In this document: piece by piece, positions 52,093 through 64,000 of the stretch
Layout of the letters: each line of letters starts with the position of its first letter
Numbering within the stretch: position 1 is the stretch's first letter
Origin: Sphaerochaetaceae bacterium
GTDB taxonomy: Bacteria; Spirochaetota; Spirochaetia; Sphaerochaetales; Sphaerochaetaceae
DNA: 64,000 nt
Direction: 5' to 3'
NCBI GenBank assembly: GCA_024405015.1
Contig: JAKSPE010000003.1
Location: 62,001-126,000 of the forward strand
Translations under genes and position numbers: made by a program
Notes under the pieces: model-generated
Told to the model about the DNA's origin: nothing
Seen by the model: only the letters and a program-made list of their open reading frames with translations
The model's database searches: none

Positions 52093-55000
52093 ATGATAAA
52101 GCGGATTATTGCGGTATGGGCATTCCTACTTGTTCTCCTATCCGGTGCATTTGCAGATGACTATCTGCTGATGCGCTCGATTCAGACAAGCTCCTATGAG
52201 GAACTTGTCAGGATGAGTAGCGCCTATGGTCTGGATGCCTCGATGGAGGAGTCGGACCTGCGCCAGAATCTGCTTGATTACTTTGGACTTGCCGAGCAAC
52301 AGACCGAAATTGACGTCTCGGAGTCTTACAGCGCTACAGCCATTACGATTGACAACTCCGATTCCCTTTACAGTTTGGGTGATGCTGTCATCCTTTCCGG
52401 AAATGTGAAACTGTCCTTTCGAACCGAATCCGATGATGCCGATCGAACGCTGACAGCCCAGAAGGTGGTTGTTGATATCGAATCCAAGCGGCTTGAGGCC
52501 TCCGGCATTGTACGCTTGGAATCGGAAGAGGAGCAGTCTCGTACCTTTGAAGGTCAAGCCGTTGTTCTGGATTGGAGCAATTTGGATATCGTGGTTTTTG
52601 AAGGGGCCAGTTCCCAGTCAAGAACCAATGCTTCTGGCGCTGAGGTCGTTTTTCTTGCAACTGGCCAGAGAATCTCCTATTCGGGGCAGACCTCATCCAT
52701 TCTGTTCAAAGATGGAACCATCGCCACAACACTGGAAGACCCTTATTGGAGCATCTCGGCAAAGCAGATCGCTTTCTCGGATAGCGACCTGTTCATAGAC
52801 AATGCGACATTTCGCCTGGGGCGTGTTCCTATCTTCTATTTCCCGATTTTCTTCTATCCGGGAACCACTTTGGCATTCAATCCAGCCATGGGCTTTTCCA
52901 GTTCAAAAGGTGCGTTCTTGAATACCACAACAGAGATTTATGGAAAGTATCCGGGTCTTGGAAGAAAGGATTCCAAGGATGACGAGGCAGATGTGTCAGC
53001 ATCCATCGTATCTCTTCTCAGTTCTGAGCAGCAGGGGGAGACCATTCGTGATGGTCTGTATTATCGACCTCTGCAGGACGGAGAGCAGCTTGGAGACCTT
53101 GAGTCCTGGGCTCGATCAAGTGCTAGTTACATGGCCATTTTCGCAGATGCGTACGAAGATCAGGGTACTGTTCTTGGTTTGGATACGGTGAACAATCTGT
53201 TGTCCAACAAAATCAGGATTTCTGCTCTTGGCGCCATTGGCTACAAAGCTGTGGCTCCATCAGAAGATCTTCAGAGACTACGCTACAGTCTGGATTTCCG
53301 CTTCAAGTACAGTGACAAGGGCCTTTCCATTGAGGCTTTGATGCCTGCTGCCAGTGACCCATTCTCAAAGCGTGACTATCTGAACCGCAACACTGTTTTC
53401 GGTTTGGATTCTGTGCTTGGACGTGAACAGGACTTTCCTTCCAACTATTCTGAGGAAAGCAAATACACAAGGTCCCTCAGTGCAAGCTATTCCAAGACGC
53501 TCGGCAATTACACCTTCAAACTCAATTCCCTTAAGGCCGACATTGATTACAAACTCGAACGAAAGCTTGATTCTGGCAAGTACCATTATGGTTCTACTGT
53601 CGTCGAAGCTTCTTTGCCATATCTGAGCCTGAGTTCCAATGGTAAGTTTCTGGACCTCAAGTCCGATGCAAAGACAGTGACAACCGATTCCGGTTACACC
53701 AACCAGCTGGCTTCAGAGTTTGAAGAGCAGCGTCTGCTTCTCGATGCGGAAAAGACCTCCAAATCCTCAGGCGAATTGTCCTTTCTCTCAGGCCCGGATC
53801 TGAAACTGTCACAGACAACCAAAACGGAAGGTTCCGCCCTTCAGGTTGGATACACCTATTTTCAGACGTTGGACAACATCTACGTTTCGGACATGGTTCA
53901 CGACAGATTCTACACAAAGGTGAACGGTACCCTTTATGTGAAAGCCAACGCTCCGGCATCCTGGCTTTCGGTCAGTGAAACAGTAAAGCCTAGTTTCAAT
54001 TTCTCGGAAAACAAAATCGGAAAACCTGATGCGAATACTGCCTCAGACCTTTCTCTGGATTCCGCGTTGGAAGCCTCCATTCCAAAACTGGGTGTCACTT
54101 ATGTGTTGAATCAGAAGGTCTATAGCCACAACACAAAGCATTCTGCAACACTTGATGAAGTTTCAAGCAGTTGGGGCTCCTGGACAAAGGAATCCGTCAC
54201 CGCCCACAACCTGACCATTTCCGAGCATTTTGGCATCTACAATCTTGGATTGTATGTGCAGTTCAGGCCTTTGACCGAAATCATCAGACCATCTGCAGGT
54301 TTTGCCGTAAACGGATTCAAATTGAATGCAAACTTCTCCTTTGAGCGAAAGGATGCAACGTTCGAGAAGGGTGTGGGGAACCTTGATCTGTCCTATACCA
54401 GCCAGATGGTCAAGGCAACGCTTGCAAACAAGTATGATTTCAAATTCCTGCAGAATTCTTCAGACGGTTGGGCTGGATACTCGGTGAAGCAATCGGTTGA
54501 GGTACATGTTCCAAACGGCCTTGTGCTTTCTGAAAATGCAGAACTTGAGAGGAGACTGGAATTCAAAAACCTCAAGTTCGCTGCTTCTTACACTGTTGAT
54601 GCCAATCATTTTGATCTCAGTGGTGCAGCTTCCCTGAGTTTCAAGGGACAGGACCTGAAAAAGGATGTTCTGGCCTTGAGTGTAAAGGCCAACACCGAGA
54701 GCCTTGTGTTCTGGAAGGGAAGAATCCGAACTTCAATAAAAGGGGACCTTTCCTTCAACTATGACTTTGAAAACCCGTACCGAAGTTCACTTTCGGCAGG
54801 CTATACCTTCAATTTCAGCATCGCGGAGTTTGTGGATCTTGGCCTTAGCATCACCAGTGCGAACAAGAGTTTCTCCAGGTATTTCACTTCGGGCAAGTTC
54901 GTGTTCGGCGATATGATGCATGACCTGATCAAGTCCTTTGATTTCTTCGGCGATGGCAGAAAGTCAACCGGATTCAACCTTTCATCCTTCAAGCTTCAGC

Positions 55001-55176
55001 TTGTCCATTACATGAGAGACTGGAATCTTTACATTGACGCAGTGGGTAAACTTACCACACAATACAGCGGTAGATACGAGTGGGTGCCGCAGGTGACGGT
55101 ATATGTCAAATGGAACGTTCTTCCTGAACTTAAAGTGGAAGGTTCCTGGGATTCGTACAATAGGGAGTGGAAATGA
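52093..55176 (+). CDS. lptD: LptD-like outer-membrane protein (OstA domain)
   Basis: A 1027-residue exported protein. A signal peptide (residues 1-21, AFA-D) leads to an OstA/LptA-like beta-jellyroll (about 90-250) and then a long region rich in aromatic-ended beta strands, as expected for a 26-strand barrel. LptD inserts lipopolysaccharide in Gram-negative outer membranes. Spirochaete homologues exist even where lipopolysaccharide is absent, so the lipid handled here is uncertain. No paired Cys of classical LptD are evident. phoH overlaps the stop. Confidence 0.78.
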   Translation: MIKRIIAVWAFLLVLLSGAFADDYLLMRSIQTSSYEELVRMSSAYGLDASMEESDLRQNLLDYFGLAEQQTEIDVSESYSATAITIDNSDSLYSLGDAVILSGNVKLSFRTESDDADRTLTAQKVVVDIESKRLEASGIVRLESEEEQSRTFEGQAVVLDWSNLDIVVFEGASSQSRTNASGAEVVFLATGQRISYSGQTSSILFKDGTIATTLEDPYWSISAKQIAFSDSDLFIDNATFRLGRVPIFYFPIFFYPGTTLAFNPAMGFSSSKGAFLNTTTEIYGKYPGLGRKDSKDDEADVSASIVSLLSSEQQGETIRDGLYYRPLQDGEQLGDLESWARSSASYMAIFADAYEDQGTVLGLDTVNNLLSNKIRISALGAIGYKAVAPSEDLQRLRYSLDFRFKYSDKGLSIEALMPAASDPFSKRDYLNRNTVFGLDSVLGREQDFPSNYSEESKYTRSLSASYSKTLGNYTFKLNSLKADIDYKLERKLDSGKYHYGSTVVEASLPYLSLSSNGKFLDLKSDAKTVTTDSGYTNQLASEFEEQRLLLDAEKTSKSSGELSFLSGPDLKLSQTTKTEGSALQVGYTYFQTLDNIYVSDMVHDRFYTKVNGTLYVKANAPASWLSVSETVKPSFNFSENKIGKPDANTASDLSLDSALEASIPKLGVTYVLNQKVYSHNTKHSATLDEVSSSWGSWTKESVTAHNLTISEHFGIYNLGLYVQFRPLTEIIRPSAGFAVNGFKLNANFSFERKDATFEKGVGNLDLSYTSQMVKATLANKYDFKFLQNSSDGWAGYSVKQSVEVHVPNGLVLSENAELERRLEFKNLKFAASYTVDANHFDLSGAASLSFKGQDLKKDVLALSVKANTESLVFWKGRIRTSIKGDLSFNYDFENPYRSSLSAGYTFNFSIAEFVDLGLSITSANKSFSRYFTSGKFVFGDMMHDLIKSFDFFGDGRKSTGFNLSSFKLQLVHYMRDWNLYIDAVGKLTTQYSGRYEWVPQVTVYVKWNVLPELKVEGSWDSYNREWK

Positions 55177-56132
55177 TGGGATCAAGTTTCGTATTTGACA
55201 ACCCTGATGCTTTGCGATGCGTCTGTGGAATTAATGACTCAAACATCGTCTATCTTGAGAAGCTGCTCGGTTGCAGCGTCTATGTCCGAGGCAACCGCAT
55301 CGATTGCAATACCCAAGACAGTGCAGACCCTGTTCTCACATCCCAACTGTTCTCCGACTTGCTTGATCGACTCTCCCGTCTTTCCGCCATCACCAGTGAT
55401 ATCAGCGAGCCTGAGATTCTGATGGAGTTCAAGGCTCTTCAGAATGCCATCGGAAAGAGCTCTGAGTCTGCTCCAAGCAAAAGAGAATTCATCTCCATCC
55501 TGAACAAGGCCGTCTATCCAAAGAGTGTCAGACAGGAAGAGTACATAAGAGCCATGAACCGAAGCCAGATTACCTTTGGTGTAGGTCCGGCTGGTACCGG
55601 AAAGACCTATCTTGCCGTTGCCTATTGCCTTGGAGAGCTTCTAAGCGGCAGAAAGCAGAAGATCATTCTGACTCGTCCGGTCGTGGAAGCTGGTGAAAGC
55701 CTGGGCTTCCTTCCTGGAGACCTGTCTCAGAAACTCAATCCATATCTGAAGCCGCTTTATGACAGCATGGAAGCTGTCATCTCTCCAGCTACCATCAAGA
55801 GGCTAGAGGACTCCGGTTCTATCGAAATCGCACCTTTGGCATACATGCGAGGACGCAGCATCCACAATGCTTGTGTCATTCTGGATGAGGCTCAGAACAC
55901 AACTCAGTCCCAAATGAAGATGTTTCTTACTAGGATAGGAGAGAACTCATGTGCTATAATAACAGGAGATGTGACGCAGATTGACCTTCCAAAGGCTTCT
56001 GCAAGTGGACTTGTTCAAGCTAAAGAGATCCTTACCGATATCGAAGGTATTGAATTTGTCAACTTCACAGCCAGGGATACGGTGCGTTCACGAATTGTAC
56101 AGAGGATCATAGATGCCTACGAGAAAAATTAA
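55173..56132 (+). CDS. phoH: PhoH-like ATPase
   Basis: A 319-residue cytoplasmic P-loop ATPase with Walker A GPAGTGKTYLAVA near residue 138, ILTRPVVEAGESLGFLPGDLSQK and Walker B VILDEAQNTT. PhoH (YbeZ) is linked to RNA metabolism and ribosome maturation with YbeY, which is coded two genes downstream. The ATG at 55173 follows GGGAG and overlaps the lptD stop (ATGA). It overlaps the next gene by 20 bases. Confidence 0.94.
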   Translation: MMGSSFVFDNPDALRCVCGINDSNIVYLEKLLGCSVYVRGNRIDCNTQDSADPVLTSQLFSDLLDRLSRLSAITSDISEPEILMEFKALQNAIGKSSESAPSKREFISILNKAVYPKSVRQEEYIRAMNRSQITFGVGPAGTGKTYLAVAYCLGELLSGRKQKIILTRPVVEAGESLGFLPGDLSQKLNPYLKPLYDSMEAVISPATIKRLEDSGSIEIAPLAYMRGRSIHNACVILDEAQNTTQSQMKMFLTRIGENSCAIITGDVTQIDLPKASASGLVQAKEILTDIEGIEFVNFTARDTVRSRIVQRIIDAYEKN

Positions 56133-58302
56133 AGCCAACAGGATATCCAACAGAAGGACACTGTATTTCATCTGTCTCGTGATTCTCCTCGTTGCTTCTG
56201 TCATGCTTCCTGTTCTTCTGAAGATGAACACTGAGGTCCAGTACAAATCCATTTACTCCGGATATACGGCAGGTCAGATTTCTGACAAGAACGTATATGC
56301 CAAGACTTCCATTGACCTGATCGACAGTGACGCTACCGCCGAAAAGAGGGCCGCAGCAAGACAGGCAGTGCTTCCTGTGTTCTCCTATTCCACCACAAAA
56401 ACCGCCGAGATGATCAGCAATGTCGATAACCTCAGAAAGGCTCTGCAAACTTCTGACTATGCCACAATCGTTTCCATTGTCGGCGATGATCTTGCCAAAC
56501 AGGTTGCCTACCTTTCCAATACCAAGCTGCTTGCTGTTGCTTATGATCTGATTACAGAGATAGTGGATATGGGTTATTACAGCAGTTCCGATTTGGATGC
56601 CATCAGCAGTCAGGGCTACAGCGCACTGACGCTCAGCAATTACTATAAAAATGCAAGCACCCATTATGAGGATGTTGTTGATTTGAATCAGACCAATGTC
56701 CTTACCTCTGCGAACATCAATGCCTACCTTTCTTCAAGGCTCATGTCCTTTGGAGTTGAATTGACTGCCAATGAGGCCATCTTGCTCCAGAATCTGATTC
56801 TGACAATGGTTCAGCCGAACATTCTGTATGACAGTGCTCTCACAACCCAGAGACGTGACAATGCAGAGTTTACTGTTGACACCGTCGTCATTTCCGTTGT
56901 GAAGGGCCAGATTCTCATCGAACAAGACCATGTCGTTACACACGAGCAGGTTGAACTTCTCAGACTTCTGAGTACCCAGAGCAATACATTCTCCTTCTTT
57001 GAGTTCGTAGGTCATCTGATCTTCAATTCCATCATCCTTGCCGTAGGCCTTTATGTCTTTGGCATGTTTGCAGGAAGAAGTAACCTTCATTACGTGCAGT
57101 ACCACATCCTCCTGGTTGCGGGTTTCCTGATTTCACTGATTGCGACTTACTTCCTGACCTTGGTCTCTTCCAAACTGAATCTGCAGTTCAGCGATTCCTT
57201 CCTTCCGGTCTTTTTCCTGTCCTTGTTCATGACAGAGATCTCCGGTTACAAGCGACTTGGATTCGTCTCTGTGTTCATGCTTGCTGCTGTTATGGCCACA
57301 CTGCCGACCGCATCCATCATGACATTCTTTTACTGCATCACATGTGGTTCCGCTTGTGTCTTCCTCATTCGATTCTTCAACAGAAGACTTGATATGATCT
57401 ACCAGTGGTTCTTCACCTGTATCACCTGTGCAGGAATCACTATTCTGTTCATGCTCATCAATGAGGCTTCTTTCAACTCGATTTTCATCGTTTTGCTGGG
57501 AACACTCATGAACGTATCCATTGCATACATTCTGCTTGGAACCCTGTTGCCACTCGCCGAGAAGGTCTTCAACCTTCCGACCATCTTCAGACTTTATGAG
57601 CTGGCCTATGGTGAGAGCGCACTTCTGACACGTCTTTCCCAGTCTGCACCTGGAACCTATAGCCATAGCCTTGCTGTTGCAGATCTTGCTGAGGCTGGAG
57701 CTAGAGCCATTGGTGCAAACCCTCTGCTTGCTAGAGTAGGTGGACTTTATCATGATATCGGAAAGATCGAGCATCCTGAGTACTTCATTGAAAACCAGAG
57801 TGGTGTCAACAAGCACGATGACATCAGTCCAAGCCTTTCCGTCGCCGTCATCAAGAGCCATGTCAAAGTCGGTGCTGATAAGGGTCGTGAAAACGGACTT
57901 CCGATTGAGATCATCAAAATCATCTCCAGCCACCATGGTAATGACATTATCCAGTATTTCTACCATGAGGCCCTCAAGTCTCAGGCTGCTGCTGCCGATA
58001 ACAAAGGTGATACCGTCAATGCTTCTGACTATTCCTACAATGCGGAAATCCCTGATTTCCGAGAATGTGGAATCGTCATGCTTGCCGACAGCATTGAGGC
58101 TGCAAGCAGAACCGTTGCGCCGAACGCTACCAAGTATGCCAAGCTCATCGATTCCATCTTCCTTGGAAAGATTGAGCGTGGTCAGCTTGATGACAGTAAC
58201 CTTACCATGAACGACATCAAGACCCTCAGCGACTCCTTCGTCAAGGCTCTTGTTGCCCGTAACCATTCCAGAATTGAATATCCTGATGCTGATGAGGATT
58301 GA
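56113..58302 (+). CDS. Membrane HD-domain hydrolase (7TM-HDED, PgpH-like)
   Basis: A 729-residue protein: one N-terminal helix (about residues 15-35), an extracytoplasmic domain (~40-300), seven membrane helices (~300-480) and a cytoplasmic HD domain with YSHSLAVADLAEAGARAIGANPLLARVGGLYHDIGK. In Listeria the homologue PgpH degrades c-di-AMP, so a cyclic dinucleotide phosphodiesterase role is likely. It stands between phoH and ybeY, the usual order in many bacteria. AGAGG precedes the ATG. Confidence 0.92.
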   Translation: MPTRKIKANRISNRRTLYFICLVILLVASVMLPVLLKMNTEVQYKSIYSGYTAGQISDKNVYAKTSIDLIDSDATAEKRAAARQAVLPVFSYSTTKTAEMISNVDNLRKALQTSDYATIVSIVGDDLAKQVAYLSNTKLLAVAYDLITEIVDMGYYSSSDLDAISSQGYSALTLSNYYKNASTHYEDVVDLNQTNVLTSANINAYLSSRLMSFGVELTANEAILLQNLILTMVQPNILYDSALTTQRRDNAEFTVDTVVISVVKGQILIEQDHVVTHEQVELLRLLSTQSNTFSFFEFVGHLIFNSIILAVGLYVFGMFAGRSNLHYVQYHILLVAGFLISLIATYFLTLVSSKLNLQFSDSFLPVFFLSLFMTEISGYKRLGFVSVFMLAAVMATLPTASIMTFFYCITCGSACVFLIRFFNRRLDMIYQWFFTCITCAGITILFMLINEASFNSIFIVLLGTLMNVSIAYILLGTLLPLAEKVFNLPTIFRLYELAYGESALLTRLSQSAPGTYSHSLAVADLAEAGARAIGANPLLARVGGLYHDIGKIEHPEYFIENQSGVNKHDDISPSLSVAVIKSHVKVGADKGRENGLPIEIIKIISSHHGNDIIQYFYHEALKSQAAAADNKGDTVNASDYSYNAEIPDFRECGIVMLADSIEAASRTVAPNATKYAKLIDSIFLGKIERGQLDDSNLTMNDIKTLSDSFVKALVARNHSRIEYPDADED

Positions 58303-58304
58303 AG

Positions 58305-58772
58305 ATGAATACAATTGATGTCTCATACGATGTTGCAGCCTACAGAAAACTTGCACCAAAGAAGTTTGTCCTATCTTACCTTTCCAAGGTTCTTGAGAAG
58401 CTCAACCTCAGTAATGTTGAGTTCTCCGTCTCCTTCATTGATGAGGAGAATATGCATCAGATGAACCTGGAGTATCGCAATATCGATGACAGCACTGACA
58501 TCCTCAGCTTCGCTGCAGAGGATGAGGATGAAGACGGTTTTGCTTTCATCAGTGCGGGAAGACGCAAGAGAGTCCTGGGTGATATGCTGATCTGTCCAGA
58601 GGTCCTGGCTCGCAATGCTCAGACTTTCAATGTTCCAGAGCAGCAGGAGCTCAGACGTCTTCTGATCCATGGTGTGCTTCACCTTTCCGGTGAGAACCAT
58701 ACTACAAATGACATTGCCAGTGAGCCTATGCTCCAGAAGCAGGAAGCCATTCTTGTTGAACTGGGAGAGTAA
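58305..58772 (+). CDS. ybeY: Endoribonuclease / rRNA maturation factor YbeY
   Basis: A 155-residue metalloprotein of 16S rRNA maturation and ribosome quality control. The zinc motif HGVLHLSGENH keeps all three His at the family spacing, though the usual Tyr-Asp before the last His is Glu-Asn. The segment LNLEYRNIDDSTDILSF is also typical. The ATG at 58305 lies seven bases after GAGG; a TTG at 58299 is less likely. It ends 6 bases before a convergent gene with no obvious terminator. Confidence 0.94.
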   Translation: MNTIDVSYDVAAYRKLAPKKFVLSYLSKVLEKLNLSNVEFSVSFIDEENMHQMNLEYRNIDDSTDILSFAAEDEDEDGFAFISAGRRKRVLGDMLICPEVLARNAQTFNVPEQQELRRLLIHGVLHLSGENHTTNDIASEPMLQKQEAILVELGE

Positions 58773-58778
58773 GTTTTC

Positions 58779-59855
58779 TTAAAGCTTGTTCTGTGCTGCA
58801 AGGCCTTCCTCGATGGAGGCGATTGCATATTCAAACACAGCGGAACCTACATAGTATTTTGCCCCAACAGAACCGACCAGTACCAGATATTTCGGATGTT
58901 CTGCAGGAATCTTCTCTATTGCAGAGTTCTCGTAATCGATTCCTCTGGCCATGCTCTTGATGACTTCAAGGTCTCGTGTGTAATCCGATGCAGTTGTGTA
59001 TTCGCTGATCTCTGTTGTTGCGTTGTAGTCCGTTACCTTGCTGACAACACTGATGTCAGAGACCCTGATGTCAGGACGCACGATACTGCTGACAAGTGTT
59101 CTGTTGACCTTCTGTCCTTCCGAGATGTTTGCGCTGTCATTCAGGTCATAGAATGGATAGGTTGTGCTGGCAACAATCTGGGCATTTGTCACATCCAGGA
59201 TGAAGGCAACGCAATACTCAGGCTGTTGGACCTCGTAAACCTGCTGTACAGCAAGGTCCAACAGATACTGGATATCCAGGTCCACAGAGAGGTAGACGTT
59301 GTTGCCGTATGTGGTGCTCTGGTCATAACCTGGAGCAGGGGACAACACATTGTCAAACACCCGTTCAGTTTCCTCAATCAACTGTGCGGCATGAAATGCA
59401 GCAGGGAATGTTCTGGAATATTCCTTTACGAGGACAATGTCCGAAGAGACTCCATTTTTGGCTGCGGCTGCTTTGATCTCATCCATGAGTTCTGTGCTGA
59501 TATCGGATCGAATCAGCGTCAGTTCTGTTGTGCTGGTGGCTGTCTTTGCTGCAATTGCATCAGGAGTAAGGTCAAGATAAATGCTTAGCACTTGAGAAGA
59601 TATATCAAAATTTTCTGCTTTTGTACGAAGGTAGAGGTTGTTCTTTGGAACTTCCATGGCGAGGGCTCTGCCGTTTCGGTCATAGATGGTCCCTCGCACC
59701 ACTTGAGAGGCAACATTCGGGTTGATGTATTTGCCTGCACGGGAATCATTTGAGATCATCAGATCTGCCAGAACAGCAACGACCACAACCAGAACCAGAA
59801 GCGAGAGGATTGCCATCGCAGTAGAAATGTTGCCTTTATTCGTTGATGAACCCAT
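58779..59855 (-). CDS. Penicillin-binding-protein homologue lacking the transpeptidase core
   Basis: A 358-residue bitopic membrane protein. One helix (about residues 12-33) is followed by a class B PBP dimerisation domain opening with RGTIYDRNGRALAMEV (54-69), then VYLSVDLDIQYLLDLAVQQV and AFILDVTNAQIVASTTYPFYDLN as at the start of a transpeptidase domain. Where PGSTFK with the active serine should be, it reads NRTLVSSIVRPDIRVS. The SxN and KTG region is absent, and the text resumes with PAEHPKYLVLVGSVGAKYY, as near the end of PBPs. About 200 residues are missing compared with FtsI. The frame is intact, so this is a pseudoenzyme, perhaps a divisome scaffold. Confidence 0.75.
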   Translation of the reverse strand: MGSSTNKGNISTAMAILSLLVLVVVVAVLADLMISNDSRAGKYINPNVASQVVRGTIYDRNGRALAMEVPKNNLYLRTKAENFDISSQVLSIYLDLTPDAIAAKTATSTTELTLIRSDISTELMDEIKAAAAKNGVSSDIVLVKEYSRTFPAAFHAAQLIEETERVFDNVLSPAPGYDQSTTYGNNVYLSVDLDIQYLLDLAVQQVYEVQQPEYCVAFILDVTNAQIVASTTYPFYDLNDSANISEGQKVNRTLVSSIVRPDIRVSDISVVSKVTDYNATTEISEYTTASDYTRDLEVIKSMARGIDYENSAIEKIPAEHPKYLVLVGSVGAKYYVGSAVFEYAIASIEEGLAAQNKL

Positions 59856-59872
59856 GGCTTTGATATTATAAT
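59843..59872 (+). promoter_or_regulatory. Divergent promoters sharing a palindromic -10 box
   Basis: ATTATAAT (59865-59872) reads TATAAT on both strands. On the plus strand TTGATG (59843-59848) lies 18 bases upstream. On the minus strand a weaker TTGTCT lies 15 bases away, and the PBP-like ATG follows the -10 box by nine bases. The plus transcript would have a short leader with AGAGG. Confidence 0.5.
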
Positions 59873-59900
59873 TACAACGTCTGTTAGACAAGAGGTGACT

Positions 59901-61145
59901 GTGGCCAGATCAAGAAGCTATGACGACTATTCCGATAACAATGTCTCAAGAAGAGGAAGTTCCTCCTCCAGGGTTCTGCTTGTCGTCATACTCCTTTCCA
60001 TCGTCATCTGCGCCGTAGCGGTTCTCTGTTGGGTCAAGATTCTTGAGACGCAAGATGTCGCAAATCAGAAGGTCACTGTCCTGAATCCTGTCTCTGACAA
60101 TGCTGCTGATAAGGTGCAGCAGGAAAACAAGGTGGAGTTCCTTGTTGAAACTCCAGCTGCCAATTCCGTTTCCTCTGTCATGGCTAGCACTGAGACGCGT
60201 AACATGAACGTCTCTTTGAACATCGATGATGCTCTTAGCCGAGAGACTGACAGCGAAAACTCTGTCAGCAACTTCAACTTCATCTCATCTGCCGATTACA
60301 GCCTGGCAAACGATGATGCCGGTTCTGTTGTGAGCGAGCAGGGCATCGAGATGAAGAAGCCTCTCATTGCCCAGAATCTGTCCATTTCTCAGCAGTCCAG
60401 TTTCTCAAAGGATCTGGTCAAATACCAGGAATACTCCATCCAGGATGGTGATTCCCTCGTATCCATTGCGGAAAGCTTTGGCCTTGAGATGACGACAATC
60501 ATTTCCGTCAACCAGATCACAAGTCCATCATCCCTGTTCATTGGAAGCACATTGCAGATTCCAGATCGCGATGGTACCTTGTATACTGTACGTGAGAACG
60601 ATACCTTGCTTTCCATTACACAGCAGTATAGCCTGAGCATCAGTGCAAAGACCCTTGGTGATATCAATGGTGTTCGTGATGACAGCCTCAAGGTTGGTCA
60701 GAAGATTTTCATCCCATCGGAGACGGAGACTTCCGGTACCATCACCAATGTCGTTGTGCAGAGTTTCATCAAACCAGCCGATGGTGTAATCAGCGCTATG
60801 TATAACCAGAAGGTCGTCAATCCATTGACCGATGAGGTGATGAAACTTGATGGTATCCATATCCAGGGCAGTCAGGGCGATCCAGTCTATGCTTCAGAAG
60901 CAGGTACTGTCATTGACAAGGGCTTTAATGAGAATGGTTCCGCCTCTGTGATGATCATGCACAACAACGGCTATCGAACTGTTTACGACTACATCGCCGA
61001 CGTCTGTGTCGAAACCACTGACAAGGTCGAGAAGGGACAGGTCATCGGATACTTTGGTGATGATACCTCAAACAATCCAATTCCAATCATCTTCTTCAAG
61101 ATTGAGCAGGATGGAATGGCTTTGGATCCATATTCCTTCTTCTGA
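59901..61145 (+). CDS. LysM-M23 family cell-wall protein, catalytically inactive
   Basis: A 414-residue protein with one N-terminal membrane helix (about residues 25-45), a Ser/Asn-rich linker, two LysM peptidoglycan-binding repeats (~178-221 and 228-271) and a C-terminal M23/LytM fold. In the M23 part the usual HxGID is DGIHIQ, the YAHL His is gone (YDYIAD) and the final HLHFE is IIFFKIE, so all metal and catalytic residues are lost. Such inactive LytM proteins (EnvC, NlpD) activate amidases at division sites. The start is GTG 59901, five bases after AGAGG. It is divergent from the PBP-like gene. Confidence 0.82.
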   Translation: MARSRSYDDYSDNNVSRRGSSSSRVLLVVILLSIVICAVAVLCWVKILETQDVANQKVTVLNPVSDNAADKVQQENKVEFLVETPAANSVSSVMASTETRNMNVSLNIDDALSRETDSENSVSNFNFISSADYSLANDDAGSVVSEQGIEMKKPLIAQNLSISQQSSFSKDLVKYQEYSIQDGDSLVSIAESFGLEMTTIISVNQITSPSSLFIGSTLQIPDRDGTLYTVRENDTLLSITQQYSLSISAKTLGDINGVRDDSLKVGQKIFIPSETETSGTITNVVVQSFIKPADGVISAMYNQKVVNPLTDEVMKLDGIHIQGSQGDPVYASEAGTVIDKGFNENGSASVMIMHNNGYRTVYDYIADVCVETTDKVEKGQVIGYFGDDTSNNPIPIIFFKIEQDGMALDPYSFF

Positions 61146-61423: not shown

Positions 61424-62425
61424 TTATTTGATCTGGGTTGACTTGTTGTTTGTCATGTCAATCTCGTAGAGCATGCTCTCGTAGGTACCGGCAACAAATA
61501 CCATAGGGTCTGCTGTGGCTTCGATGTTGACGATGCCTGCTGTTCTGAGTGTTGTTGCAAATCCTGTACTGATGGACTCGATTGTCTTGTCTGTGATGTT
61601 GTAGCGGTCAAAGTAGTTGGAAGCCTTGATGACGATGTACTCTTTGCCGTCGTTTGTGTAATAGAAGGAAGCAGCCTGAGTGGAGTAGGCATACTGCAGG
61701 GAAGACTTCATGGTAAACAGGACAGTTGATTCAACACCTGTGGATGTGAGCTTGAAAGCCTCGAAGGTGGCCTTGGAGGAGTTGTAGCTGACAATTACGA
61801 ATTCTCCGGAATCTGCAATTGGCTGGAAGGCGATGTAGGTCTTGGAACTTCCATCCACACCATCGACTACAACAGTTCCATCGTTTTTGATGACATAGTA
61901 TTTGATTGCATCAGACTTGACGACGCTGAAGAATGCGTAATCTCCAGTTTCAAGAGCGTAAAGGACTTTGGCATCGGAGATAACTGGTGTTGCTGTTGTG
62001 CCGCTTACGGTGTAAATGGCAGAGTTGTCATAGACAAGGCCGTTACGAAGAAGAGCTTTGAAAGTGCCTGTTACCTGTGCAGGCGTAGCACCAAAAGCGG
62101 TGTAATATTCAAGAACGGTTGAGAGGTCTGACTTCTGGGTCATGACAAGGGCCTCTCCTGTTGCACCATTGAGGCTTGCGCTTCTGATGATTGAGGATCC
62201 GCTGTTCTCAAGCCGGGCACCAGAGCCGATCTTGAAAATGCCTTCATCTGAGAGGTAGTAGTGCTCATCGTTATAGCATCCAAGATAGGACTTGATGTTG
62301 ACGTCTGTATTGACGGTTGAGGATGCAACCTCTGAGTAGATTCCTTCTGTTGCATCGATGTTACAGGAAATGAAGGCACAGAGGCAAAGTGCTGCAAGTA
62401 GGATTGTGATTGCTGTTCTTCTCAT
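61424..62425 (-). CDS. Probable lipoprotein, unknown function
   Basis: A 333-residue exported protein. The N-terminus RRTAITILLAALCLCAFISC ends in a lipobox-like segment with the lipidated Cys near residue 20. The rest is rich in Ser, Thr and Tyr with repeated short beta strands and could form a propeller-like fold, but no family is recognised. The ATG at 62425 follows AGGAG. It lies 10 bases downstream of the outer-membrane protein gene and ends at a terminator, so the two are likely cotranscribed and may act together at the outer membrane. Confidence 0.78.
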   Translation of the reverse strand: MRRTAITILLAALCLCAFISCNIDATEGIYSEVASSTVNTDVNIKSYLGCYNDEHYYLSDEGIFKIGSGARLENSGSSIIRSASLNGATGEALVMTQKSDLSTVLEYYTAFGATPAQVTGTFKALLRNGLVYDNSAIYTVSGTTATPVISDAKVLYALETGDYAFFSVVKSDAIKYYVIKNDGTVVVDGVDGSSKTYIAFQPIADSGEFVIVSYNSSKATFEAFKLTSTGVESTVLFTMKSSLQYAYSTQAASFYYTNDGKEYIVIKASNYFDRYNITDKTIESISTGFATTLRTAGIVNIEATADPMVFVAGTYESMLYEIDMTNNKSTQIK

Positions 62426-62435
62426 CTGTGGCTCC

Positions 62436-63035
62436 TTAGTGTCTGTATGCAACGGTAAGTGCTACCGGAAGCAGTCCGCAGATTGCGCTGGACTTGTACT
62501 TGTTATTGTTCTTTCCGTAAAGCTCGGCAGAGGCCATGAGACCTGACTCAATTCCGATTCCCCAAGACTCGGTGAAGAAGAAGGTCGGCTGGATGGTTGC
62601 CTGTGCATATGGGGTAATGTACTTTCCGCCATTGTAACGGACAAAGGAAACACCAAGGTTCAGGGATGCAGCAAGGTCGAACTTCCTTTTCTGGATTGGG
62701 TAATAGGTCAGTTTTGCGGTGATTGGTACTGTGGTCAGAAGGAGAGAACTCTGGGAGTAGTTGAAGGCATATCCAAGTTCACCACCGAGAGCAAAATACT
62801 CTGAAATGTAACCCTGATAGGAGATGGATGCATATCCTCCAAGTTTCATGTGTGTATCGGCAAAAGTGACTGTGCCTCGGTCGGAATCGTTCACAAAAGA
62901 GATGAATGCCGGAAAATCGACACCTCCTCGGAAAGAGAATACCTGGTCGCCTGTGGCATAGTAGGTGGAACGTGCAAAAACGGAACCACTGACAAGGACT
63001 GCAAGGACCAGCATGGCCATGAATGCTTTTCTCAT
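62436..63035 (-). CDS. Small outer-membrane beta-barrel protein
   Basis: A 199-residue protein with a signal peptide (residues 1-21, SVFA-R) followed by alternating strands with aromatic and Gly residues, such as HMKLGGYASISYQGYISEYFALGGELGYAFNY and AKLTYYPIQKRKFDLAASLNLGVSFVRYNGG, as in eight-stranded outer-membrane barrels. Similar short porin-like proteins occur in treponemes. The ATG at 63035, behind AGAGG, excludes a long open frame upstream. A promoter on the minus strand lies at 63078-63106. Confidence 0.72.
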   Translation of the reverse strand: MRKAFMAMLVLAVLVSGSVFARSTYYATGDQVFSFRGGVDFPAFISFVNDSDRGTVTFADTHMKLGGYASISYQGYISEYFALGGELGYAFNYSQSSLLLTTVPITAKLTYYPIQKRKFDLAASLNLGVSFVRYNGGKYITPYAQATIQPTFFFTESWGIGIESGLMASAELYGKNNNKYKSSAICGLLPVALTVAYRH

Positions 63036-63077
63036 GTATACCTCTTGAAAAATGACTTGGTTGAATATTAACAAATA

Positions 63078-63106
63078 AATATAATCATTTGAATACAACA
63101 ACACAA
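63078..63106 (-). promoter_or_regulatory. Promoter of the outer-membrane protein/lipoprotein operon
   Basis: On the minus strand TTGTGT (63101-63106), 17 bases, TATATT (63078-63083). Confidence 0.5.
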
Positions 63107-63166
63107 AAACACACATCAATAGCATTTTGTTACTGTAATGTGTATAATCGCACTGCGGAGGGTTGC

Positions 63167-64000
63167 ATGCAGATTCTGTCCGGAAAGGAACTGAGTGCCC
63201 AGGTAAAAAGCCAGGTCGCTGACAAGTGTATGGAATTTGAGAAGAGGTTTTCCAGAAAACCTTGTCTCGCAGTTGTTCTTGTAGGAGATAATCCTGCAAG
63301 CCAGACCTATGTAAAAAGCAAAAAGAAGGCTTGTGAGGAACTTGGAATCGCTCACCTTGACATTGATATGGACAAGAGCACTTCCCAGGACGAACTTCTC
63401 AAATGCATTGCATCCCTCAATGACGACCCTGCTGTCGATGGTATTCTGGTGCAGATGCCACTTCCTTCTCAGATTGATGAACTTGCAATCACCAATGCCA
63501 TCTGCCCGGAAAAGGATGTGGACGGTTTTCATCCGCAGAACATTGGAAAGCTTCTGCTTGGGCAGGAGACTCTGATCGCCTGCACACCAAAGGGAATTCT
63601 CCGAATCCTTGACCATTATGGAATCCAGACTGACGGCAAAGATGTTTGTGTGTTGGGTCGAAGCAACATCGTCGGTAAGCCTATGGCAGCACTTCTGATG
63701 CAGAAGGACCGCAATGCCACCGTTACGGTCTGCCACTCAAGATCGTCCAATGCGCAGGATTATTTGAAGAGAGCTGATATCATCATTGCTGCAGTCGGAC
63801 ATGTCAATGCTGTGACTTCTGATATGGTGAAGGATGGGGCTGTGATCATCGATGTCGGTATCAACCGCGTTCCAGATGCCACAAAGAAGACTGGCTATGC
63901 CATCAAGGGCGATGTCGATTATGAAGATCTGAGTGCAAAGGTCAGCGCCATGACACCGGTTCCTGGTGGAGTTGGTCCTATGACAATTGCCATGCTCATG
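63167..64000 (+). CDS. folD: Bifunctional methylene-THF dehydrogenase/cyclohydrolase FolD, partial
   Basis: The first 278 codons of FolD; the gene runs past the window end with no stop. It interconverts methylene-, methenyl- and formyl-tetrahydrofolate for one-carbon supply. The catalytic YVKSKKKACEELGI with Tyr and Lys, GILVQMPLP, GRSNIVGKPMAALL and the C-terminal PVPGGVGPMTIAMLM are all present. TATAAT (63142-63147) and GCGGAGGG before the ATG indicate its own promoter. Confidence 0.96.
   Translation, partial: MQILSGKELSAQVKSQVADKCMEFEKRFSRKPCLAVVLVGDNPASQTYVKSKKKACEELGIAHLDIDMDKSTSQDELLKCIASLNDDPAVDGILVQMPLPSQIDELAITNAICPEKDVDGFHPQNIGKLLLGQETLIACTPKGILRILDHYGIQTDGKDVCVLGRSNIVGKPMAALLMQKDRNATVTVCHSRSSNAQDYLKRADIIIAAVGHVNAVTSDMVKDGAVIIDVGINRVPDATKKTGYAIKGDVDYEDLSAKVSAMTPVPGGVGPMTIAMLM

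Follow-up and report, generated by a model that had tools for sequence, protein, structure and literature searches.

A 64,000-nucleotide stretch of DNA from a Sphaerochaetaceae bacterium (contig JAKSPE010000003.1, positions 62,001 to 126,000; hereafter the window), part of a 2.03 Mb draft metagenome-assembled genome (MAG) that is 84.9% complete, carries a divergent pair of genes encoding an FtsI homologue, a class B penicillin-binding protein (PBP) without its transpeptidase core, and a LysM/M23 protein without its zinc ligands. As a preliminary description had proposed, both reading frames are open throughout: the minus-strand frame 58779-59891 (P0001) encodes 370 amino acids from a TTG codon, and the plus-strand frame 59895-61145 (P0002) encodes 416 amino acids from a GTG codon. 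An ATG at 59855, giving a 358-residue product (P0010), is the likelier start of the minus-strand gene, because relatives have the MGSST... start in common and because a stop codon is met upstream of this ATG in four matches from the same genus that extend there (G009, G010, G008 and G004). The nearest database records are mostly MAGs from ruminant gut. The locus contains the following features.

58779..59855, minus strand: FtsI, a class B PBP lacking the catalytic core of the transpeptidase, a pseudoenzyme of 358 amino acids from the ATG (Pfam, alignment, AlphaFold2 (AF2) model, structure match)
59751..59840, minus strand: FtsI membrane anchor helix, model residues 6-35 (AF2 model)
59358..59699, minus strand: FtsI pedestal (anchor/head), residues 53-166, with the RGTIYDRNGRALA motif and the PBP_dimer match (Pfam, alignment, model)
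59130..59306, minus strand: first end of the FtsI transpeptidase fold, kept, residues 184-242, YG.DVYL..DLDIQYLLDL...YPFYDLND (alignment)
58926..59129, minus strand: short variable stretch of FtsI, residues 243-310, where the SxxK/SxN/KTG core (~190 residues) is missing (alignment)
58782..58925, minus strand: last end of the FtsI transpeptidase fold, kept, residues 311-358, two strands and a C-terminal helix, ending ...AQNKL (model, structure match, alignment)
59856..59894: 39-base divergent intergenic region, with a sigma-70-like site on the plus strand (TTGATG at 59843, TATAAT ending at 59872) directed toward the LysM/M23 gene
59895..61145, plus strand: membrane-anchored LysM-LysM-M23 protein, a degenerate LytM factor without zinc ligands (Pfam, NCBIfam, alignment)
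60432..60563, plus strand: first LysM domain, residues 180-223, the second lying near residue 229 (Pfam, NCBIfam)
60849..61130, plus strand: M23/LytM domain without HxxxD, the His of Y.HL, or HxH (Pfam, alignment)

The only Pfam domain found on the 370-residue minus-strand protein is PBP_dimer (4.6e-7, residues 64-172), the PF03717 score of 30.9 bits against a cut-off of 24.4 marking an N-terminal anchor and pedestal, and its sequence matches in NCBIfam and the PDB are to class B PBPs, FtsI included. A Pfam profile search found no Transpeptidase domain (PF00905) in this protein or elsewhere in the window's own genome. The absence of the serine-transpeptidase core, noticed at the outset, is borne out by alignment with full-length relatives, in which the SxxK, SxN and KTG blocks are seen to be deleted, not substituted. 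The locus is orthologous to that of the family's catalytic FtsI, which has the same divergent LysM/M23 neighbour, and none of the 139 family genomes surveyed has more than one PF00905 protein. The minus-strand protein is FtsI, the one class B PBP of the family, from which the catalytic transpeptidase block has been deleted. A search of plasmids with the 370-residue form returned one distant PBP record only.

FtsI retains its membrane anchor and its pedestal and, of the transpeptidase fold, the two ends. An AF2 model built from 9 sequences shows the anchor helix and head, followed by the two transpeptidase ends flanking a short variable stretch, the beginning of the fold being a helix with two strands and its end two strands with the last helix. 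VIA-align places model residues 53-358 on PBP3 structures with Z ~16 over ~260-270 residues, and since this match spans PBP3 residues 61 to 555, both ends of the fold have been kept and the middle is gone. Within the window's genus, conservation is highest where the transpeptidase fold begins (mean 0.81), followed by the start of the pedestal (0.78), and falls to 0.58 in the stretch without the core. In the Pseudomonas aeruginosa FtsWIQBL complex, FtsL binds the FtsI pedestal together with transpeptidase residues Y229, R551 and P556/P557, as well as G478/P477, and FtsQ/FtsB touch R226, R551 and N554 (PMC7614612). Y229 aligns without gaps to Y197 of the 358-residue protein, a tyrosine invariant in 9/9 sequences of the genus, and the C-terminal segment that maps to ~551-555 by structure alignment is retained. 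The surviving FtsI thus appears, from its modelled structure, to be largely a docking surface, the lost portion being that which holds the active site, and this is the chief argument for regarding the protein as a scaffold.

The distribution of the truncated protein was surveyed in 139 genomes of the family, the window's genus being designated g1. Exactly one PF00905 match is present in 59/139 genomes and none in 80/139, and a homologue of the minus-strand protein was found in 67 of the 80 that lack it. Seventy-three of these 80 fall in eight genera (g1, g7, g8, g10, g12, g13, g16 and g19), here called wall-minus, in which 65/73 genomes have the homologue; the other seven (G015, G063, G064, G066, G077, G143 and G147) belong to genera otherwise keeping the wall pathway, or are odd cases. 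All 10 other examined members of the window's genus carry the FtsI homologue, although in G001 and G002 it is only partial, at contig ends, and the frames are therefore not a product of chance; the truncated frame is intact wherever the contigs of genus members cover the gene. Full-length transpeptidases do occupy this locus in other genera, a pattern that the preliminary description had tied to recent deletion or assembly error, but the deletion, which is shared by the window's genus, extends to other genera and arose at least twice on the tree described below, can be put down neither to a recent event nor to an assembly error. Because those other genera of the family keep the full transpeptidase at the locus (59/139), the earlier suggestion that the pair is fitted to the spirochaete envelope is not specific. 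As a separate observation, a further degenerated FtsI-like open reading frame (ORF) of 377 amino acids was seen in G022 (L127, 907-2037), in a genus without FtsW and beside neighbours that are lnt- and secA-like by eye.

Genes of peptidoglycan precursor synthesis were followed in 73 genomes picked from the 139, a selection comprising 47 wall-minus genomes, 23 with a transpeptidase, and G064, G066 and G015; in the counts that follow, G064 and G066 are included in the wall-plus set (n=25). mraY is present in 25/73, namely 25/25 wall-plus and 0/47 wall-minus genomes, with none in G015. A murG match was obtained in 46/73, at 1e-21 or better in the 25 wall-plus genomes and at a weak 1e-4 to 1e-14 in 21/47 wall-minus genomes, so that strong murG stands at 25/25 against 0/47. 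Across the full survey, 131/139 genomes have at least one Mur_ligase_M match, and nearly all wall-plus genomes have several strong ones; among all 73 genomes of the eight wall-minus genera, G009 is the only one with a match better than ~1e-14, the others having none to two weak matches that may be FolC. Replacement of FtsI by an L,D-transpeptidase was considered and rejected, YkuD being found in only 2/73 selected genomes (G066 and G157), weakly in both. The OmpA domain PF00691 was found in 0/73, walled relatives included, and its absence is therefore uninformative as a sign of peptidoglycan binding.

The dcw cluster tells of the same loss. Among 38 loci compared (17 wall-minus, 21 wall-plus), the wall-plus order is mraZ-rsmH-ftsL-murF-mraY-ftsW-ftsQ-ftsA-ftsZ, with both murF and mraY in 20/21 loci, the remaining one (L092) being cut by a contig end; both genes are missing from 17/17 wall-minus loci. 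At the search sensitivity used, the wall-minus clusters nonetheless retain FtsW, FtsA and FtsZ in 17/17, FtsQ in 14/17 and FtsL in 13/17. Lipid II synthesis thus looks to have been lost in the 73 genomes of the eight genera, that of the window included. The pair had at first been proposed as a non-catalytic scaffold for cell-wall synthesis or division: the two intact pseudoenzymes and a non-catalytic role in division are upheld by conservation, selection and gene context, but 'for cell-wall synthesis' is unsupported, since neither MraY nor a true MurG remains in the genus and MurF is gone from its dcw cluster.

FtsW, the glycosyltransferase of the SEDS (shape, elongation, division and sporulation) class, has also decayed. 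PF01098 is found in 132/139 genomes, with E-values of ~1e-7 to 1e-45 in wall-minus as against 1e-47 to 1e-92 in wall-plus genomes. We aligned the proteins to P. aeruginosa FtsW and numbered the Trp and Asp from the residue list in PMC8765783 (W138/E150; H295-T296-D297), which also describes E. coli FtsW D297A and W138A as dominant-negative and failing to complement. The Asp of extracellular loop 4 (ECL4; equivalent to E. coli D297) is lost in 12/17 wall-minus rows and has become Lys in 3/3 rows of the window's genus, and the ECL2 Trp (equivalent to W138) is lost in 17/17; both residues are intact in 21/21 wall-plus rows. By sequence, the wall-minus FtsW is catalytically dead, missing one or both of the loop residues of an active SEDS glycosyltransferase.

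Despite its lost core, the truncated FtsI has been constrained. NG86 ratios of non-synonymous to synonymous substitution (dN/dS) are 0.087 (G005/G006), 0.134 and 0.116 for three pairs in the window's genus (G004, the L113 fragment and the window sequence being left out), 0.114 in g19 and 0.168 in g16, with 0.035 for FtsZ in g19; the ratios are rough, synonymous divergence being high in several comparisons (FtsI dS reaching 1.97). They nevertheless indicate that the truncated FtsI is under purifying selection and not decaying. In a tree of RsmH, FtsA and FtsZ (38 rows), g1, g8, g19, g12 and g10 form one group and g16 falls elsewhere, as the sister of g11, in which mraY is retained. The tree requires two changes, and a single origin of wall loss was rejected by an approximately unbiased (AU) test (36 rows, p-AU 1.2e-5 for a single wall-minus clade). 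The test leaves out the long branches L068 (G016) and L103 (G109), and g7 and g13 are therefore unplaced. Conservation of the PBP deletion among spirochaetes, on which the preliminary description had asked for a check, thus extends through the genus to other genera, with at least two separate losses. A third case is offered by two genomes of g11, G064 (L074 12946-14364) and G066 (L075 1708-3144), whose FtsI of 472-478 amino acids has neither PF00905 nor SxxK (dN/dS 0.217 for the pair), and which keep mraY, murG, intact FtsW residues and Amidase_3. This is a third FtsI inactivation, one preceding wall loss, and FtsI first, wall second is the likely order of events. In these two genomes the wall pathway is present without any PF00905 D,D-transpeptidase having been found.

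The M23 domain of the plus-strand protein matches Pfam at 4.5e-19, accompanied by two LysM domains. Read against the canonical M23 motif, all four zinc-binding and catalytic positions are altered (H to L, D to H, Y.HL to YDYI, and HLHF to IIFF), leaving none of the HxxxD and HxH zinc ligands of an M23 metallopeptidase. The loss of metal and catalytic residues had been described correctly, with one amendment: in the rows that cover the domain, the zinc ligands are missing family-wide, even beside an intact transpeptidase, and the two 'dead' states therefore differ in age. The His of Y.HL is kept in 11/16 wall-plus rows and in no wall-minus row covering it (L028, L063, L036 and L038 do not cover the site). 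Homologues are present in 64/73 selected genomes (39/47 wall-minus, 25/25 wall-plus, none in G015), and in 64/64 genomes having both genes, coordinates place the LysM/M23 gene next to FtsI on the opposite strand. The combination of a degenerate LytM domain with LysM is that of LytM-type amidase activators (NlpD/EnvC/ActS); ActS is the best NCBIfam match (3.6e-22), although at 78.8 bits it falls short of the equivalog cut-off of 375. Amidase_3, the partner of such activators, occurs in 27/73 selected genomes, these being 25/25 wall-plus, G015 and one weak wall-minus match, and was found neither in the window's own genome nor in 46/47 wall-minus genomes. The LysM/M23 protein is most readily understood as a LytM factor of ancestral origin, left without its amidase partner when the wall was lost. 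The sigma-70-like site in the intergenic region is weak evidence, one being found where 0.4 are expected.

These observations are probably best explained by a truncated FtsI that, together with FtsW, makes up a non-catalytic FtsWI scaffold serving cell division in the absence of peptidoglycan. In a spirochaete lineage that probably no longer makes peptidoglycan, FtsI, its transpeptidase core gone, would have been kept because it still has a structural place in the core divisome formed by FtsQ, FtsL, FtsW and FtsI. The membrane-spanning helix and pedestal of FtsI would hold FtsL and the dead FtsW, and what is left of the transpeptidase fold at either end would form a top surface docking FtsL/FtsQ, in a physical complex located at the septum of cells that lack a wall. 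The complex presumably passes force or position from the FtsA/FtsZ ring across the inner membrane and periplasm. The LysM/LytM protein, linked to the divisome, probably once activated the single Amidase_3 enzyme of the family and, with the amidase gone, would persist in the periplasm as a member of that module. More tentatively, an outer-membraned spirochaete lineage may divide by FtsZ without peptidoglycan, a wholly non-enzymatic FtsQ-FtsL-FtsW-FtsI complex and its LysM/LytM partner linking the Z ring mechanically to the envelope, and may have evolved this at least twice by the same route, which in both losses would comprise loss of the FtsI transpeptidase, loss of murF-mraY and decay of the FtsW active site.

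Several points weigh against the scaffold interpretation. The AF2 model of FtsI is only fair (pLDDT 66, pTM 0.55). FtsW was not found in a PF01098 search of the window's own incomplete MAG, and the window's contig stops ~4.3 kb past the window, short of where genus mates carry dcw, so that the cluster of this species, FtsW included, is deduced from G005, G009 and G004. FtsL and FtsQ were called by similarity and position, the POTRA domain of FtsQ lying below cut-off and FtsL having no Pfam match, and the divisome tally covered FtsW, FtsQ, FtsL, FtsA and FtsZ. The searches behind the pathway loss covered mraY, murG, murF and Mur_ligase_M. The genus mate G009 (L128 / L058, C62) has a strong MurF beside Ddl (D-Ala ligase), on a contig with GC of 0.437 as against 0.479 and different tetranucleotides that is probably, though not provenly, a contaminant. 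In g16, the FtsW Asp is kept in 5/8 rows, so some activity on another substrate is possible there. Finally, in three genomes of g13 neither FtsW nor LysM/M23 gave a match, FtsI being found in 1/3, and G016 has a 236-residue FtsI and no LysM/M23 match, indicating that the module can erode after wall loss; the joint loss of FtsW and LysM/M23 in g13 fits a single module, yet shows that module to be dispensable.

One alternative is that FtsI is a functionless leftover of wall loss that happens to remain open: in g7 and g13 it is shorter still or absent, and in g16 its similarity is low. That reading is nevertheless improbable, given dN/dS of 0.09-0.17 over five pairs, frames intact wherever contigs of genus members cover FtsI, similar parts of FtsI retained in clades that lost the wall separately, and a conserved divergent pairing with LysM/M23. 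It is unlikely, too, that the truncated FtsI still activates an FtsW that now polymerises some other lipid-linked glycan at the septum. The FtsW fold is kept, as is the Asp in most g16 rows, and SEDS enzymes are described in PMC8078798 as requiring a cognate class B PBP; against this stand the Lys that replaces the Asp throughout the window's genus, the universal loss of the ECL2 Trp among wall-minus rows, and the lack of MraY and true MurG.

A role outside the divisome, in which FtsI and the LysM/LytM protein form a repurposed envelope pair that might, for instance, tether the inner membrane to the outer one, would account for genes that are always adjacent and divergent where both occur and for LysM domains retained without peptidoglycan. 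The pairing is ancestral, however, and present with catalytic FtsI too, while FtsL, FtsQ and FtsW are retained alongside, and FtsW and LysM/M23 are jointly missing in g13; we regard such a role as improbable. An assembly or binning artefact can be dismissed: many of the genomes are fragmented MAGs, but the same truncation and dcw gap recur in many separately assembled genomes of different studies, on contigs that are continuous across the junctions.

Other genes near the pair provide additional context. At lower coordinates, PhoH, 7TM-HD and YbeY genes (55167-58772, plus strand) adjoin FtsI, and YbeY with an HD gene is also found at the FtsI locus in g12 (L016) and g19 (L014); the neighbourhood is different in g16 and in wall-plus genera. 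Beyond these, at 52093-55176 (plus strand), lies a gene for a 1027-residue protein without a Pfam match, LptD-like by eye, which bears on whether lipopolysaccharide is present in the outer membrane. On the other side, 61424-63299 (minus strand) holds two ORFs without a Pfam match, lipoprotein- and outer-membrane-like by eye, and similar ORFs lie 3' of FtsI in g8 (L015).

The larger finding is a group of spirochaetes, probably without a wall, that has a pseudoenzyme divisome core. In the open-access literature searched, we recognised no description of peptidoglycan loss in this family or of a transpeptidase-less FtsI. FtsW and FtsI, viewed as synthases of the septal wall, rank among the principal targets of antibiotics; if our interpretation is correct, FtsWI also plays a structural part that can be separated from wall synthesis. 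A lineage without the wall pathway yet with both pseudoenzymes under selection would provide a clean test of whether the core divisome is only a wall factory, or has a mechanical or organising function too, with two independent evolutionary replicates and a partial intermediate in G064/G066, where the FtsI active site is lost and mraY, murG and intact FtsW remain. It also predicts, for many spirochaetes of the rumen and gut, an intrinsic insensitivity to beta-lactams as well as to other inhibitors of the wall.

Among the closest known systems is P. aeruginosa FtsI/PBP3 in the SEDS-bPBP complex FtsWIQBL (8BH1), with which the present proteins share the anchor helix, pedestal, transpeptidase-fold ends and FtsL/FtsW/FtsQ/FtsA/FtsZ gene context. 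Unlike that complex, they have no serine-transpeptidase core, no FtsW active site and no lipid II pathway. Within the same family, Sphaerochaeta and Bullifex have mur and mraY genes whereas the window's lineage is without mraY and murG, and the ftsI-LysM/M23 locus is shared by the wall-plus relatives examined. A 2012 mBio paper on Sphaerochaeta is said to have reported missing PBPs. Published accounts give a single transpeptidase for Sphaerochaeta coccoides (PMC4423922) and, for Bullifex porci and Sphaerochaeta, the absence of rodA, mreC and PBP1a/2/C with mur genes present, the peptidoglycan of B. porci containing L-Orn (PMC7738495). The LysM/M23 protein resembles the LytM amidase activators NlpD, EnvC, ActS and DipM in joining LysM to a degenerate M23 domain, and differs from them in a score far under the ActS cut-off and in the loss of the partner Amidase_3 from the lineage. 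FtsI and FtsW are likewise uncoupled from essential septal synthesis in Planctopirus limnophila, where ftsI and ftsW are reported as dispensable (PMC6952346); there, however, the two proteins are full-length (561 and 406 amino acids), in a budding bacterium that lacks FtsZ. Wall-less Mycoplasma genitalium has similarly lost peptidoglycan and kept ftsZ and mraZ/mraW, its division cluster being given as mraZ, mraW, MG_223 and ftsZ (PMC8475190), with no FtsW/FtsI, whereas the spirochaetes described here, whose lineage has an outer membrane, have retained both FtsW and FtsI in pseudoenzyme form.

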